54,140 nt of DNA from NCBI GenBank assembly GCA_026713825.1, contig JAPONS010000007.1:1-54140 (forward strand). Reading direction: 5' to 3'. This document shows positions 20,481 to 50,845 of the stretch, piece after piece (position 1 is the first letter of the stretch; every line of letters begins with the position of its first letter). The notes beneath the pieces are model-generated. The model made no database searches and was not told the DNA's origin. It saw nothing but the letters and a program-made list of their open reading frames with translations. This stretch comes from Chloroflexota bacterium (GTDB lineage Bacteria; Chloroflexota; Dehalococcoidia; Lucifugimonadales; UBA1127). Made by a program: the position numbers and the translations under genes.

Positions 20481-21617
20481 CTACGCCGTCAGGTTGTAGA
20501 AGGCCTTGGCGTTGTCGTGCGTGATCTTCTGCCGCATCTCGTCCGAGAGGTGGGCCATCTCCCGGTCCACCACGGCCATCGAGTTCGGCCACGTGCTGTC
20601 CGGGTGCGGGTAGTCGGACGCCCACATCATGTGCCCCTCGCCGAAGAAATGAATGAGGTTCAGGCCCACCAGGTCCTGCTGGTAGGTGGCCCACACCTGC
20701 TTCTTGAAGATTTCGCTCGGCCACCTGGTAAGCGGGTAGTTGTCGGCGCCCCGCCGGTCGATTGCCTGGTCCATCCGGTAGTCCATCTCCTGCACCTGGA
20801 ACGGGATCCATCCCGTGCCCGACTCGGCGAGGCAGATGCGCAGGTTGGGGCGCCGCTCCAGCACACCGTAGCTGAAAAGGCCGATGAACGGCGCGAAGAA
20901 CACCGTCGCGCCCTCCCCGAGGCCCATGCCGAACGCCGGTTTCCGCGTCTCCTCCTCAGGCGACGTCCGCGACATGAAGCTGCCCGACCGCCCCGGCCCG
21001 CCGACATGGTAGTTGACCGTGATGTTGCTGGCCTCCGCCGTGTCCCAGAAGACGTCCCAATCGGGCTGGTACATGTGGCTGGACACCGTGCCGACCAGGA
21101 AGTTGACCTGCCGGATGCCCATCTCGGCGCAGCGGAGCATCTCCGCCGTCGAGCCGTCGGGGTCGTCCGGCAGCAGCTGCGCGACGACCCGGAACTGGTC
21201 GGGAGCCGACGCCTCGAACTCCGCCGCCCAGTCGTTGTACGCCTGAATGACGGCGATGCCCAGGTCTTTGTCCTCCAGCCGCATCCCGAAGATTGGCGGG
21301 TACATGACGGAGAACTTCACGCCGTCCCGCTCCATGTCCTCCAGCCGGAGCTCGGTGGTCGTCGGCCGGGCGCCGTAGTTGCCGTCAAACGGGACGCGGT
21401 CCAGCGCCACCTTGATGCGGTTCTTGTCCTGGTACCACCGGCCGCGCCGCCAGTCTCCCCAGACTGCGCCGTCGCAGACCCACATCTCCTTGCCGTTGCG
21501 CTCCTCCACCTTCGGGCCGCGGTCCTTGTACTTGGCGGGAAGCCGCTCCAGGAACAGGTCCGACGGCAGATACCCCAGGTCGATGTGGTCGTCTGCGGAA
21601 ATCATCTTCGCAGCCAT
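20481..21617 (-). CDS. Amidohydrolase-2 family protein
   Basis: 378 residues. It begins MAAKMISADDHIDLGYLPSD, with the metal-binding D-x-H at the end of the first strand; NYHVGGPG, LAESGTGWIP and MMWASDYPHPD mark the remaining barrel ends. It belongs to the same family as 11475-12596 and shares the ESGxGWxP and W-A-S-D-Y-P-H blocks. It has a 35-residue insertion after strand one (EERNGKEMWVCDG and on). The start ATG 21617 has gagga eight bases upstream; the open frame to 21731 is not needed. A degradative role is assumed, the substrate is unknown. Confidence 0.83.
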   Translation of the reverse strand: MAAKMISADDHIDLGYLPSDLFLERLPAKYKDRGPKVEERNGKEMWVCDGAVWGDWRRGRWYQDKNRIKVALDRVPFDGNYGARPTTTELRLEDMERDGVKFSVMYPPIFGMRLEDKDLGIAVIQAYNDWAAEFEASAPDQFRVVAQLLPDDPDGSTAEMLRCAEMGIRQVNFLVGTVSSHMYQPDWDVFWDTAEASNITVNYHVGGPGRSGSFMSRTSPEEETRKPAFGMGLGEGATVFFAPFIGLFSYGVLERRPNLRICLAESGTGWIPFQVQEMDYRMDQAIDRRGADNYPLTRWPSEIFKKQVWATYQQDLVGLNLIHFFGEGHMMWASDYPHPDSTWPNSMAVVDREMAHLSDEMRQKITHDNAKAFYNLTA

Positions 21618-21783
21618 CGCTCTATTCCTCCATGTCCGAGCCTCGAATGTCCCGGACCCTGCTCGATAGGATATTGAGAGTGCGGATTGTTGTATCACGC
21701 TTGTCGCCCCACGCGCAAGCGCGGCCCGCACGATGCCCTCTCGCCCGTGCGCGAGGGCGGATGGGCCACCGGGCTTGAGTTTT

Positions 21784-21792
21784 TGCTACAAT
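21784..21792 (+). promoter_or_regulatory. alaS extended -10 promoter
   Basis: TGC-TACAAT, an extended -10 without a clear -35. The same form occurs before sucC (minus strand, 34884-34876) and tRNA-Ala (TGC-TATAAT, 50751-50759). The start of transcription would be near 21799, giving a leader of about 40 bases with no T-box room. Confidence 0.55.
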
Positions 21793-21838
21793 TGAGGCGT
21801 TGTGCGCCCAACGGCGACATCCTCTGAAACTGCCGGCA

Positions 21839-24800
21839 ATGGAGCAACCAACGCGGATGCGAAGCGTCGACGAACTGAGACAGGGGTTCCTGGACTACTT
21901 TCAGGAGCGCGGCCACCTGGTGGTGCCGAGCTCCTCGCTGGTGCCCGCAGGCGACCCCACGCTGCTGCTGACGACGGCCGGCATGGTGCAGTTCAAGCCC
22001 TACTTCCTCGACGAGGCCGCCGCGCCGCGCAGCCGCATGACCTCCGCGCAGAAGTGCTTTCGCACCACCGACATCGAGGAGGTGGGCGACCACAAGCACC
22101 TGACCTTCTTCGAGATGCTGGGCAACTTCTCCGTCGGCGACTACTTCAAGCAGGGCGCCATCGAGTTCGCGTGGGAGTTCGTCACCAAGCATTTGGAGCT
22201 GCCGCCAGAGAAGCTCTACCTGACCGTCTACACGGACGACGACGAGGCCGAGGCCCTGTGGCGCGACACCTCCGGCACGCCGCCGGAGCGCATGTACCGC
22301 TACGGGGCGAGCGACAACTGGTGGGGGCCGCCCGGCGCCGAGGGCCCCTGCGGCCCCTGCTCCGAGCTCCACTACGACTTCGGCGAGGCGCTCGGCTGCG
22401 CGCCGCTGTCGCCGCCGGCGGAGGTCGCCGCGTGGGTCGCCGCCGGTATGAAGCCCGAGGACCAGCCCGGCTGCCACCCCAACTGCGACCGCTGCGAGCG
22501 GTTCGTGGAGTTCTGGAACTTGGTGTTCATGCAGTTCTACCAGGACATCGAGGGACAGTTGAGCCCGCTGCCAAAGCCCAACGTCGATACCGGCATGGGG
22601 CTGGAGCGGATAGCCATCATCAAGCAGGGCGCCAGCAACATCTACGATACCGACCTCTACCAGCCCATCATCGGTAAGGTGGCCGAGCTTGCCGGCGCGC
22701 GCTACGGCGCGTCGCACGACACCGACGTGCCCATGCGCGTCGCCGCCGAGCACACGCGCGGCGCCGTCTTCCTCATCAGCGACGGCGTCATCCCCGGCAA
22801 CGAGGGCCGCGGCTACGTGCTGCGAAGGCTCGTGCGGCGAGCCGTCCGCTTCGGCCGGAAGCTCGGCCTGACGGACCCCTTCCTGACGGAGGTCTCTGAT
22901 GTCGTCATTGAGCGCATGGGCGGGGCGTACCCGGACCTGGTCCAGAACCGCGAGTTTATTCTGCGGGTGATTACTCTTGAGGAGGATCGCTTTAGAGAGA
23001 CCGTTGAGAGGGGCATTGGCGTACTAACTGGAATGCTCACATATCGCAACCAACATAAGGGAGCCATTCCTGAAATAATTGAGTTCGCTAATCTCCGAAA
23101 TCCTGGTGCAGAGAATGCTGCTTCTGTGCTGGAAGCGTATGGTTTCGTGGCCTATGATCCTGAAGCACCATCTGAGGAGCGACATGGCCAAGAGATAGCT
23201 GCGAACGCTGTATCAGAGTTGGCGTTTGAGACGTTTAACAGCATAGAGCGTGGCGAGGAAAGCGAAACGGCGGAGTGGGCCAAGTTATTGTCTCACTGGG
23301 GCGATTCCGTTAGTGGGGGGGAAGCATTCTATTTGTATGACACCTACGGCTTTCCTGTGGAAGAAACTGTGGAGATCGCCCAAGAGCACGGTCTGACCGT
23401 CGACATAGATGCGTTCGAGCAGCACATGGAGGCGCAGCGCGAGCGGGGCCGCGCGGCCACCGAGGCCCGCCTTGGCGGTGGCGGCGAGGCCAAGATCTTC
23501 AGGTACCGCGACCTCGGCGTCGGCCGCGTCACCTTTGTTGGCTACGACCGCCTGTCGCAGCAGTCGGAGGTGCTCGCCCTGCTTACGCCCGACGGCGACG
23601 CCCTCGACAGCGCGGAAGCCGGGCAGGACGTCGAGGTGGTTCTTCGCGAGACCCCCTTCTACGCCGAGGGGGGCGGCCAGGTCGGTGACACCGGCGCCAT
23701 TCTGTCCCTCCGCGGCCACGTCGACGTGTCGGACACGCAGTCGCCCATCGACGGGCTCATCGTCCACAAGGGCCGCGTCCGCAGCGGCGCAATCGCGTCC
23801 GGCGACGAGGTCGAGGCCCGCGTTGACCGCGAGCGGCGGATGGACGTCGCCCGCAACCACTCGTCCACGCACCTGCTGCATGAGGCGCTGCGCCGCGTCC
23901 TCGGCAGCCACGTGCGGCAGGCGGGCTCGCTGGTCGCGCCCGACCGCCTGCGCTTCGACTTCACCCACCTGCAGGCCATGACGCCCGAGGAGGTCGGCGA
24001 GGTGGAGGCGCTCGTCAACGAGCAGGTCCGCCGCAACGCCGCCTCCGTTCGCAACGAGCTCACGTACACCAGCGCGCTGGAGCACGGCTACCTCGCCTTC
24101 TTCGGCGACAAGTACGGCGAGACGGTGCGCGTCATCGACATGGGCCTCGACGACCCGGACGCGTCCAGCGCCGAGCCCTTCAGCCGAGAGGTCTGCGGCG
24201 GCACCCACCTCGATCGACCCGGCGAGGTCGGCCTGTTTCTCATCACGAGCGAGAGCTCCATCGGTTCCGGCATACGCCGCGTGGAGGCCGTGACCGGGCG
24301 CGCAGCCGAGGCGATGGCGCGCAGCAGCCTCGCGACGCTGGAGTCGGCGGCCCAGCAGCTCGAGACCACCCCCACGGACATCGAGACCCGCATCGAGGCG
24401 CTGAAGGCCCAGCTCGACGCCGAACGCCGCCGCGCCGAGTCACTGGAACGCGCCAACGCCCGCGCCGAGGCCGGCGGACTCGTGTCTGAGGCGCAGGATG
24501 TCGGTGGTGTCAACGTCGTCTCGGCCAGAGTAACCGCGCCCTCGGCGGACGTGCTCCGCGAAATGGCTGGCCACCTCCGCGACAGGCTCGGCAGCGGCGT
24601 CGTCATGCTGGGCGCCGTCGCCAATGAAAAGCCCATGCTCATCTCGATGGTGACGCCGGACCTGGTGGAGCGCGGACTGAACGCCGCGTCGCTGGTCCGC
24701 GAGGCTGCCGCCGTCGTCGGTGGCGGAGGCGGCGGCAAGCCCGACATGGCGCAGGCCGGCGGCTCCAGGCCGGACAAGCTGGACGAGGCCCTCGCGCTTG

Positions 24801-24841
24801 CGCCTCAACTGGTTGGCAAGGCGATAGGCCAGGGTGGATAA
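21839..24841 (+). CDS. alaS: Alanyl-tRNA synthetase with a low-GC internal insertion
   Basis: About 1000 residues, against about 875 in E. coli. Class II core: LTTAGMVQFKPYF, KCFRTTDIEEVGDHKHLTFF and VDTGMGLERIA. The editing domain has NHSSTHLLHEALRRV and VCGGTHLDRPGE (H-x3-H and C-x3-H zinc site), and a C-Ala domain follows. Between ERGIGVLTGML and GGEAFYLYDTYGFP about 75-80 extra residues (about 401-491) replace a linker of roughly a dozen, in DNA of 40% GC. The start is ATG 21839, with ATG 21857 or TTG 21800 as alternatives. It charges tRNA-Ala; one such tRNA lies at 50770. Confidence 0.95.
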   Translation: MEQPTRMRSVDELRQGFLDYFQERGHLVVPSSSLVPAGDPTLLLTTAGMVQFKPYFLDEAAAPRSRMTSAQKCFRTTDIEEVGDHKHLTFFEMLGNFSVGDYFKQGAIEFAWEFVTKHLELPPEKLYLTVYTDDDEAEALWRDTSGTPPERMYRYGASDNWWGPPGAEGPCGPCSELHYDFGEALGCAPLSPPAEVAAWVAAGMKPEDQPGCHPNCDRCERFVEFWNLVFMQFYQDIEGQLSPLPKPNVDTGMGLERIAIIKQGASNIYDTDLYQPIIGKVAELAGARYGASHDTDVPMRVAAEHTRGAVFLISDGVIPGNEGRGYVLRRLVRRAVRFGRKLGLTDPFLTEVSDVVIERMGGAYPDLVQNREFILRVITLEEDRFRETVERGIGVLTGMLTYRNQHKGAIPEIIEFANLRNPGAENAASVLEAYGFVAYDPEAPSEERHGQEIAANAVSELAFETFNSIERGEESETAEWAKLLSHWGDSVSGGEAFYLYDTYGFPVEETVEIAQEHGLTVDIDAFEQHMEAQRERGRAATEARLGGGGEAKIFRYRDLGVGRVTFVGYDRLSQQSEVLALLTPDGDALDSAEAGQDVEVVLRETPFYAEGGGQVGDTGAILSLRGHVDVSDTQSPIDGLIVHKGRVRSGAIASGDEVEARVDRERRMDVARNHSSTHLLHEALRRVLGSHVRQAGSLVAPDRLRFDFTHLQAMTPEEVGEVEALVNEQVRRNAASVRNELTYTSALEHGYLAFFGDKYGETVRVIDMGLDDPDASSAEPFSREVCGGTHLDRPGEVGLFLITSESSIGSGIRRVEAVTGRAAEAMARSSLATLESAAQQLETTPTDIETRIEALKAQLDAERRRAESLERANARAEAGGLVSEAQDVGGVNVVSARVTAPSADVLREMAGHLRDRLGSGVVMLGAVANEKPMLISMVTPDLVERGLNAASLVREAAAVVGGGGGGKPDMAQAGGSRPDKLDEALALAPQLVGKAIGQGG
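22965..23345 (+). other. Low-GC patch and insertion inside alaS
   Basis: Line 23041-23100 has 24 G/C of 60 (40%), against 44 of 60 (73%) at 22741-22800. Codons end mainly in A/T here and in G/C on both sides. The patch covers the extra residues (TYRNQHKGAIPEIIEFANLR ... AEWAKLLSHWGDSV) plus the start of the conserved block after it. The reading frame is kept. This looks like a transferred segment or an insertion with its flank. Confidence 0.75.
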
Positions 24842-24894
24842 TTTCCCTGCTGTATCAATGCGGCGCGTTCGCGTGTATTCGGGGGTTAGTGGAC

Positions 24895-25545
24895 ATGAGC
24901 GATTCGTTGATTGCGTTGGCGGTCTTTGAGGGCTTCTGGGGCCAGGTGTTTGAGTACTGGCCCTTCTTCCTCACTGTGGGAGCCACCCTCATATTCGGCG
25001 GCATCTCCATCCTGATGGACCTGTGGTGGCGAAAGACCCTTCCGCCGCCGGAGGGCGCCATGCCCCGCGTCGAGATTCCCCTCGACCCGCGCGTCCCCTA
25101 CCGCCGGTGGATCAGCCGCGGGCGGACCATGATGCGGTTCGGTCTGGGTATCGGGGTCTTCTTCGCCCTCATCTATGCCTCCTTCGCCATCAACCCCCAG
25201 GGCATCAACGACCAGTTTGCCCTGCAACAGGACCGGGACCCCGAACTCGTCAGGGGGTCGCTTATTGCCCTTGCCGCGATGATCTTCGGTTACCTGGCGA
25301 CCGTATTCCTGCGCGACAAGCCGTGGACCCAGACGTGGGCCCTCCTGCCCGTGCCCATCGTGGCAATGGTCGGCCCGTGGCTGTTTACCGGCGACATAAC
25401 CAAGCTGTACGCCAGCACGGGTGTGGTGGGCACCCCATGCCTGTTCGCCGCTCTTGGCTGGGCCTACACCTACTACGGTCTGCAGGGCCTCCGCAATCTG
25501 CAGCGCGCGCAGACCAGCGCCGCCCCCGCTGCGGACAGCGGCTAA
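24895..25545 (+). CDS. Integral membrane protein of unknown function
   Basis: 216 residues (start ATG 24895; GTG 24889 is also possible behind ggggg). Hydrophobic segments: YWPFFLTVGATLIFGGISIL, FGLGIGVFFALIYASFAI, GSLIALAAMIFGYLATVFL, TWALLPVPIVAMVGPWLF and a last one around GTPCLFAALGWAYTYYGL. Between TM1 and TM2 a basic, Pro-rich cytoplasmic loop occurs. The family is not recognised. It sits between alaS and ruvX, four bases before ruvX, so it is likely in one operon with them. Confidence 0.6.
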   Translation: MSDSLIALAVFEGFWGQVFEYWPFFLTVGATLIFGGISILMDLWWRKTLPPPEGAMPRVEIPLDPRVPYRRWISRGRTMMRFGLGIGVFFALIYASFAINPQGINDQFALQQDRDPELVRGSLIALAAMIFGYLATVFLRDKPWTQTWALLPVPIVAMVGPWLFTGDITKLYASTGVVGTPCLFAALGWAYTYYGLQGLRNLQRAQTSAAPAADSG

Positions 25546-50769: not shown

Positions 50770-50845
50770 GGGGATATAGCTCAGCTGGAAGAGCGCTGCG
50801 TTCGCAACGCAGAGGTCGGGGGTTCGAATCCCCCTATCTCCACCA
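50770..50845 (+). tRNA. tRNA-Ala (anticodon CGC)
   Basis: The acceptor GGGGATA pairs with TATCTCC, keeping the G3-U70 pair that defines alanine tRNAs. The anticodon stem ctgcg/cgcag holds loop TTCGCAA with anticodon CGC (codon GCG). The TPsiC arm is GGGGGTTCGAATCCCCC. CCA is encoded (50843-50845). 73 bases plus CCA. Confidence 0.96.

Follow-up and report, generated by a model that had tools for sequence, protein, structure and literature searches.

How does the gene of an essential aminoacyl-tRNA synthetase come to carry, in frame, a stretch of DNA that looks foreign to the rest of it, and does that stretch alter the enzyme? The question is raised by a gene in the 54,140-nucleotide stretch of DNA analysed here (the window), which is carried by the metagenome-assembled genome G000. 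The gene matches the alaS equivalog model TIGR00344 (E=3e-256, 852.8 bits against a cut-off of 457) as well as the Pfam families of the class II core, i.e., tRNA-synt_2c (PF01411), tRNA_SAD (PF07973), and DHHA1 (PF02272), and on both counts it is the gene for alanyl-tRNA synthetase (AlaRS). The coordinates of its parts are given in Table 1.

Table 1. Parts of the alaS gene in the window.
Feature	Position	Strand	Basis
alaS, alanine--tRNA ligase	21839..24841	+	ATG at 21839 (start codon inferred); ORF open from 21779
Imported low-GC tract (insert and both shoulders), probable	22953..23410	+	Identity drop against G002; GC3
Left conserved anchor EEDRF	22979..22993	+	Alignment of 118 alaS genes of the order
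Insert proper, 94 codons, cassette type A1	23021..23302	+	Absent in G001-G003, non-homologous in G004; homologues elsewhere
Right shoulder: conserved protein, replaced codons	23303..23410	+	Codon comparison and informative sites
YDTYG peptide; Tyr-Asp reads G3-U70 of tRNA-Ala	23336..23350	+	Alignment to A. fulgidus AlaRS (3wqy)

A replaced tract within alaS

The reading frame is uninterrupted across the patch, as the original prediction had it, and the GC content of 40% that it gave for positions 23041-23100 is exact. GC is 50% over 22965-23345, while the flanks, put at 73% by the prediction, measure a little less, 68% (21839-22949) and 71% (23411-24841). By codon position the patch compares with the rest of alaS as 0.60 to 0.70 (GC1), 0.45 to 0.46 (GC2), and 0.46 to 0.93 (GC3). 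Along the gene GC3 is 0.94 before 22950, 0.58 at 22950-23020, 0.46 at 23021-23302, 0.56 at 23303-23410, and 0.91 thereafter. Chance is no explanation for the patch: when the ORFs with 200 or more codons in 323 kb of the G000 genome, 185 in all, were scanned in 40-codon windows, the lowest GC3 fell here.

Four species of the same genus (g1), G001 to G004, were available for comparison. The closest, the one-contig genome G002, is about 92% identical to G000 over most of alaS and lacks the insert. The slot, defined as the stretch between EExxF and LYDTYGFP, spans 112 residues in G000 and 31 in G002, a difference of 81 that agrees with the 75-80 extra residues predicted. The slots of G001 and G003 are also without insert and that of G004 is a different one, 133 residues long. 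The frame of the G001 gene (L031) is broken near both ends in its contig, probably by assembly errors. Against G002 the identity falls from 90% to 46% at 22953 (lnL gain 34), and on the right identity alone places a weak change point at 23335 (43% inside, 83% outside, lnL gain 8), beyond which low GC3 extends to about 23410. The limits first proposed, 22965-23345, thus locate the patch but draw its edges slightly too narrowly. In the right shoulder the genus motif GFPVEET is kept in different codons, and G000 reads VEIAQEHG like G003 and G004, where G001 and G002 read QDIARERG. At sites where G001 and G002 agree and differ from an agreeing G003 and G004, G000 joins the latter pair at 12 of the 21 that lie in the patch and at 16 of the 180 that lie elsewhere (Fisher p=7e-7, with window limits set by eye). 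Because shoulder codons and informative sites have switched too, the patch is a replacement tract and no clean insertion. The sites resembling G003 and G004 could be shared ancestral states or the result of convergence in base composition.

Very probably the patch is a recombination import, and the slot that received it serves the order as a site for interchangeable cassettes. The pattern suggests that homologous recombination with a lower-GC, divergent alaS would have exchanged about 450 bp of the gene, that the crossovers would have taken place in or near the conserved slot flanks EExRF and LYDTYGFP, and that the import would have delivered a helical type A1 cassette of about 80 residues. 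The sharp change of identity and of nearest relative at breakpoints that marks a mosaic gene is seen, at sequence level, in G000 against G002, in the informative sites, and again in the pair G060 and G061 (see below). The donor was probably a lower-GC relative, although VEIAQEHG may alternatively be the ancestral state. Over the 155 residues of the patch the best match, in G079, reaches 56% identity, and the homologues found are distant. A donor search that covered 250 genomes from the order and 393 from the class yielded no close candidate, and one scan of viral contigs with the patch gave no match.

Two other sources of a foreign-looking tract were considered. A chimera created during assembly or binning is a natural concern for a metagenome-assembled genome in 114 contigs that stems from a single assembly. 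However, the two joins fall inside a single gene, keep its frame, and occupy homologous positions, the shoulders bear sequence of the genus type (PVEET), and the same pattern is met independently in G079, G060, G227, G085, and others, including the single-contig genome G230, and we consider a chimera very improbable. A mobile protein-coding element, be it an intein, an in-frame palindromic element or another selfish insert, would be in frame, patchily distributed and of foreign composition, just as the patch is, but its shoulders would be cleanly interrupted and not replaced. No second copy of the insert was found in the G000 genome, no inverted or direct repeats were found in it or bounding it, no Pfam or PHROG family matched it at E<=10, and Rfam gave no match at E<=1 over positions 21400-25200; an RNA element and a known inserted domain were thereby rejected as well. 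An intein was specifically rejected as the insert ends in LLSHWGDS-VSGGEAF, which lacks the C-terminal His-Asn (followed by Cys, Ser, or Thr) needed for splicing, and a Rickettsia-type palindromic element was rejected on its single copy and the lack of a palindrome or repeat. A mobile element is therefore extremely unlikely.

The type A1 cassette in other families and orders

The A1 cassette has the consensus GMxxYRxxHxxAIPEII.F...ENA..LEqyGFv and is found in six families when that of G000 is counted, the others being f14, f41, f13, f7, and f18. Homologues are carried by G079, G204, G017, G011, and G060, and in other orders by G318, G579, and G454. Separate trees of insert and core had been proposed as a check, and the two differ. 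In the core tree, built from alaS without the slot, G000, G079, G204, and G060 each fall among members of their genus or family, and G017 stands next to G052 of the same family; G011, as the sole f7 genome sampled, has no family partner there. The Dehalococcoidales record L136 falls within a group of genomes from other orders of the same class, and on this position the class is taken to be Dehalococcoidia. In the insert tree A1 sequences from six families and from other orders cluster together, with support of 94/92 without G060 and 91/86 with it. Forcing the f41 inserts into one clade is rejected with the insert columns only (p=0.014) and gives p=0.054 when the shoulders are included.

A clean parallel to G000 is G060, which carries A1 where G061, G062, G064, G065, and the sampled neighbouring genera do not. 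G060 and G061 are neighbours in the core tree, and windows along alaS show their proteins to be 80-100% identical; the replacement is confined to the part that begins immediately behind EEERFYEA and runs to LYDTYGFP. Within it the shoulder residues of G060 switch to the type of the other A1 carriers (YDRGAEILGGM, SGHEAFFLYDTYGFP). A separate observation concerns the right shoulder of G079 (L166). It has the genus g1 motif GFPVEET, in contrast to GFPKELT in the congener G018; the A1 tract of G079 may have come from a g1-like donor.

It is conceivable that A1 was instead inherited vertically from an ancestor of the class and then lost many times or diverged past recognition, its low GC being due to weak constraint or to codon selection at a domain boundary. 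A-type inserts do pass down vertically in f28 and in part of f41, the A1 tree is poorly resolved, and the three sequences from other orders can be held together. On the other hand, vertical descent does not account for the gap around G060 or for the replaced codons in the conserved shoulder of G000. Relaxed constraint was rejected as the source of the low GC because variable and poorly conserved positions of alaS outside the slot in G000 keep a GC3 of 0.89-0.92. Inserts shared within a genus are also far less GC-poor than unshared ones. We therefore regard vertical inheritance as improbable. A situation in which all close relatives carry the same insert in high-GC codons, which had been named as the result that would make it an old family trait, was looked for and not found. 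The predicted fragment, recombined from another lineage's AlaRS, is supported by the four congeners that lack this insert, the replaced shoulders, and the homologues in other families and orders.

Turnover of the slot across the order

The slot comparison took in 118 alaS genes of the order, representing about 40 families, and slot length ranges from 27 to 145 residues. Outgroup slots that could be read, from other phyla and from Dehalococcoidales (L136, L140), are about 35 residues or less; no slot could be read for L142, L144, L145, and L149, and for L152 a wrong left anchor accounts for the apparent 68 residues. Those of the 75 genome contig matches whose slot was readable, mostly from Firmicutes, Actinobacteria, and Dehalococcoidales, showed no long insert. 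The trait seems to be concentrated in this order, since open frames of alaS in a phylum-wide sample are mostly near 860-950 residues, frame length serving as a proxy for the slot. Among same-genus pairs in which both members have an insert, 52 of 128 show no detectable homology between the two (BLAST 1e-4, half coverage), a count inflated by fast divergence, e.g., in G146 within g67; in a further 24 same-genus pairs one member only has an insert. The fewest changes on the 118-gene tree are 52 for insert type, 19 for presence, and six for A1. Across the order the slot thus behaves as an interchangeable cassette site, as congeners hold unrelated inserts or none. Since the cassette is exchanged between lineages, its suggested use as a lineage marker is contradicted.

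Exchange may not be limited to different cassette types. The congeners G164 and G163 (L184, L185) and G162 and G161 (L191, L194) have similar cores (dN 0.03 and 0.05, respectively) and the same insert type, with insert dN values of 0.61 and 0.74, and such strongly diverged alleles suggest that allelic exchange takes place too. Two alaS-like matches were found in each of G242 (contigs C9 and C20) and G705 (contig C1), and duplicate copies of this kind could act as donors within the cell.

Composition provides a measure of time. For GC-rich genomes with a sampled congener, the median GC3 deficit is -0.39 for inserts that are not shared within the genus (n=14) and -0.11 for those that are (n=26; Mann-Whitney p=1e-6, related genomes not being independent). 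In sporadic carriers, variable and poorly conserved positions outside the slot have a GC3 of 0.73-0.82, compared to an average of 0.48 in the slots. This contrast fits a recent import followed by amelioration. Where dN/dS could be computed between congeners it was 0.06-0.40 for inserts and 0.02-0.15 for the core, and cassettes are thus constrained by purifying selection, less so than the enzyme core.

One may speculate that the turnover is itself selected. AlaRS would then be the target of a phage protein, a toxin or an antibiotic, and the slot would be swapped for escape, which is compatible with recombination import. In favour of such diversifying selection are a turnover so extreme that insert type changes at least 52 times on the 118-gene tree and the closeness of the insert to the tRNA-reading peptide. 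However, dN/dS is below 1 within cassettes, no attacker of the site is known, and the turnover is also fitted by neutral recombination at a tolerant surface loop, and we consider this possibility unlikely. The same doubtful standing is given to the more specific proposal that the slot is a dedicated diversification site, its turnover driven by conflict with an AlaRS binder (phage protein, toxin, or natural inhibitor) and supplied from a class-wide cassette pool.

Position beside the tRNA-reading peptide and relation to known systems

The insert is located in the tRNA-recognition domain, outside the editing domain and upstream of the peptide that reads G3-U70. Tyr449 and Asp450 of the A. fulgidus enzyme contact G3-U70 (PMC6451123). 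Residue 499 of the G000 protein aligns with residue 448 of A. fulgidus AlaRS (3wqy), so the Asp of LYDTYGFP corresponds to Asp450; 12 residues separate the insert end from it. An AlphaFold2 model built with 17 insert-free homologues has a helical insert that prolongs the helix at residues 365-412 (pLDDT of the block 58-82) and superimposes on E. coli AlaRS (3HXU) with Z 47.4 over 424 aligned residues, leaving the insert over. The insert is thus predicted to be helical and to extend the helix by which the chain leaves the tRNA-recognition domain. Folding the insert and short flanks from the single sequence gave a model of too low quality for use (pLDDT 54).

All three tRNA-Ala genes of G000 (TGC, CGC, and GGC) have G3-U70; the CGC gene lies on the same contig as alaS, at window positions 50770-50845. 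The acceptor stems of the TGC and CGC genes are identical to those of the insert-free G002, the comparison covering these two as the GGC gene of G002 is a pattern match only. Similarly, G060 and G061 have acceptor stems in common for the two tRNA-Ala genes read. A changed tRNA identity was rejected on these grounds, and as the insert is outside the editing domain the predicted effect on tRNA or editing behaviour found no support. We suggest, with moderate confidence, that the enzyme largely tolerates the cassette as a folded helical appendage, rather than using it as an altered tRNA-reading element. The near-invariant Asp of LYDTYGFP is itself replaced in five insert carriers, which read LASTYGFP (L049 of G053), LYTTYGFP (L003 of G054 and L205 of G221), LYATHGFP (L173 of G213), and LYATYGFP (L176 of G223); the tRNA-Ala genes read from these genomes retain G3-U70.

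Informational enzymes such as aminoacyl-tRNA synthetases (aaRS) are common clock-like markers. In this large uncultured order, of which the genomes searched represent 97 genera, one internal slot of AlaRS that lies beside the reader of the key alanine identity pair has undergone replacement again and again, which calls for caution in using the region in trees or as a signature indel. GC amelioration may in turn serve as an internal dating signal for transfer below the level of the gene. The question that follows is for what reason exchangeable helical cassettes are tolerated, or wanted, at this place in an essential enzyme. A literature search among open-licence papers found no report of the slot.

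The enzyme as a whole is like that of E. coli (3HXU, TIGR00344), but neither E. coli AlaRS nor the readable AlaRS of other phyla has the helical stretch of about 80 residues present in the tRNA-recognition domain of G000. Rickettsia palindromic elements are in-frame inserts in proteins and likewise add a segment to a housekeeping protein, but the G000 insert is unrepeated in its genome, non-palindromic, and comes with its shoulders. Mosaic genes formed by intragenic recombination (e.g., PMC4437187) resemble alaS in having a conversion tract with breakpoints inside the gene; here the gene encodes an essential housekeeping enzyme and the tract falls in a recurrent cassette slot of variable length. 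Also similar are the laterally transferred aaRS and 'homeoalleles' (PMC3191353), in which divergent aaRS sequence has moved between lineages. The likeness lies in the exchange of aaRS sequence between lineages, and the difference is that in alaS an internal segment only, not the whole gene, is exchanged, and this repeatedly at one slot.
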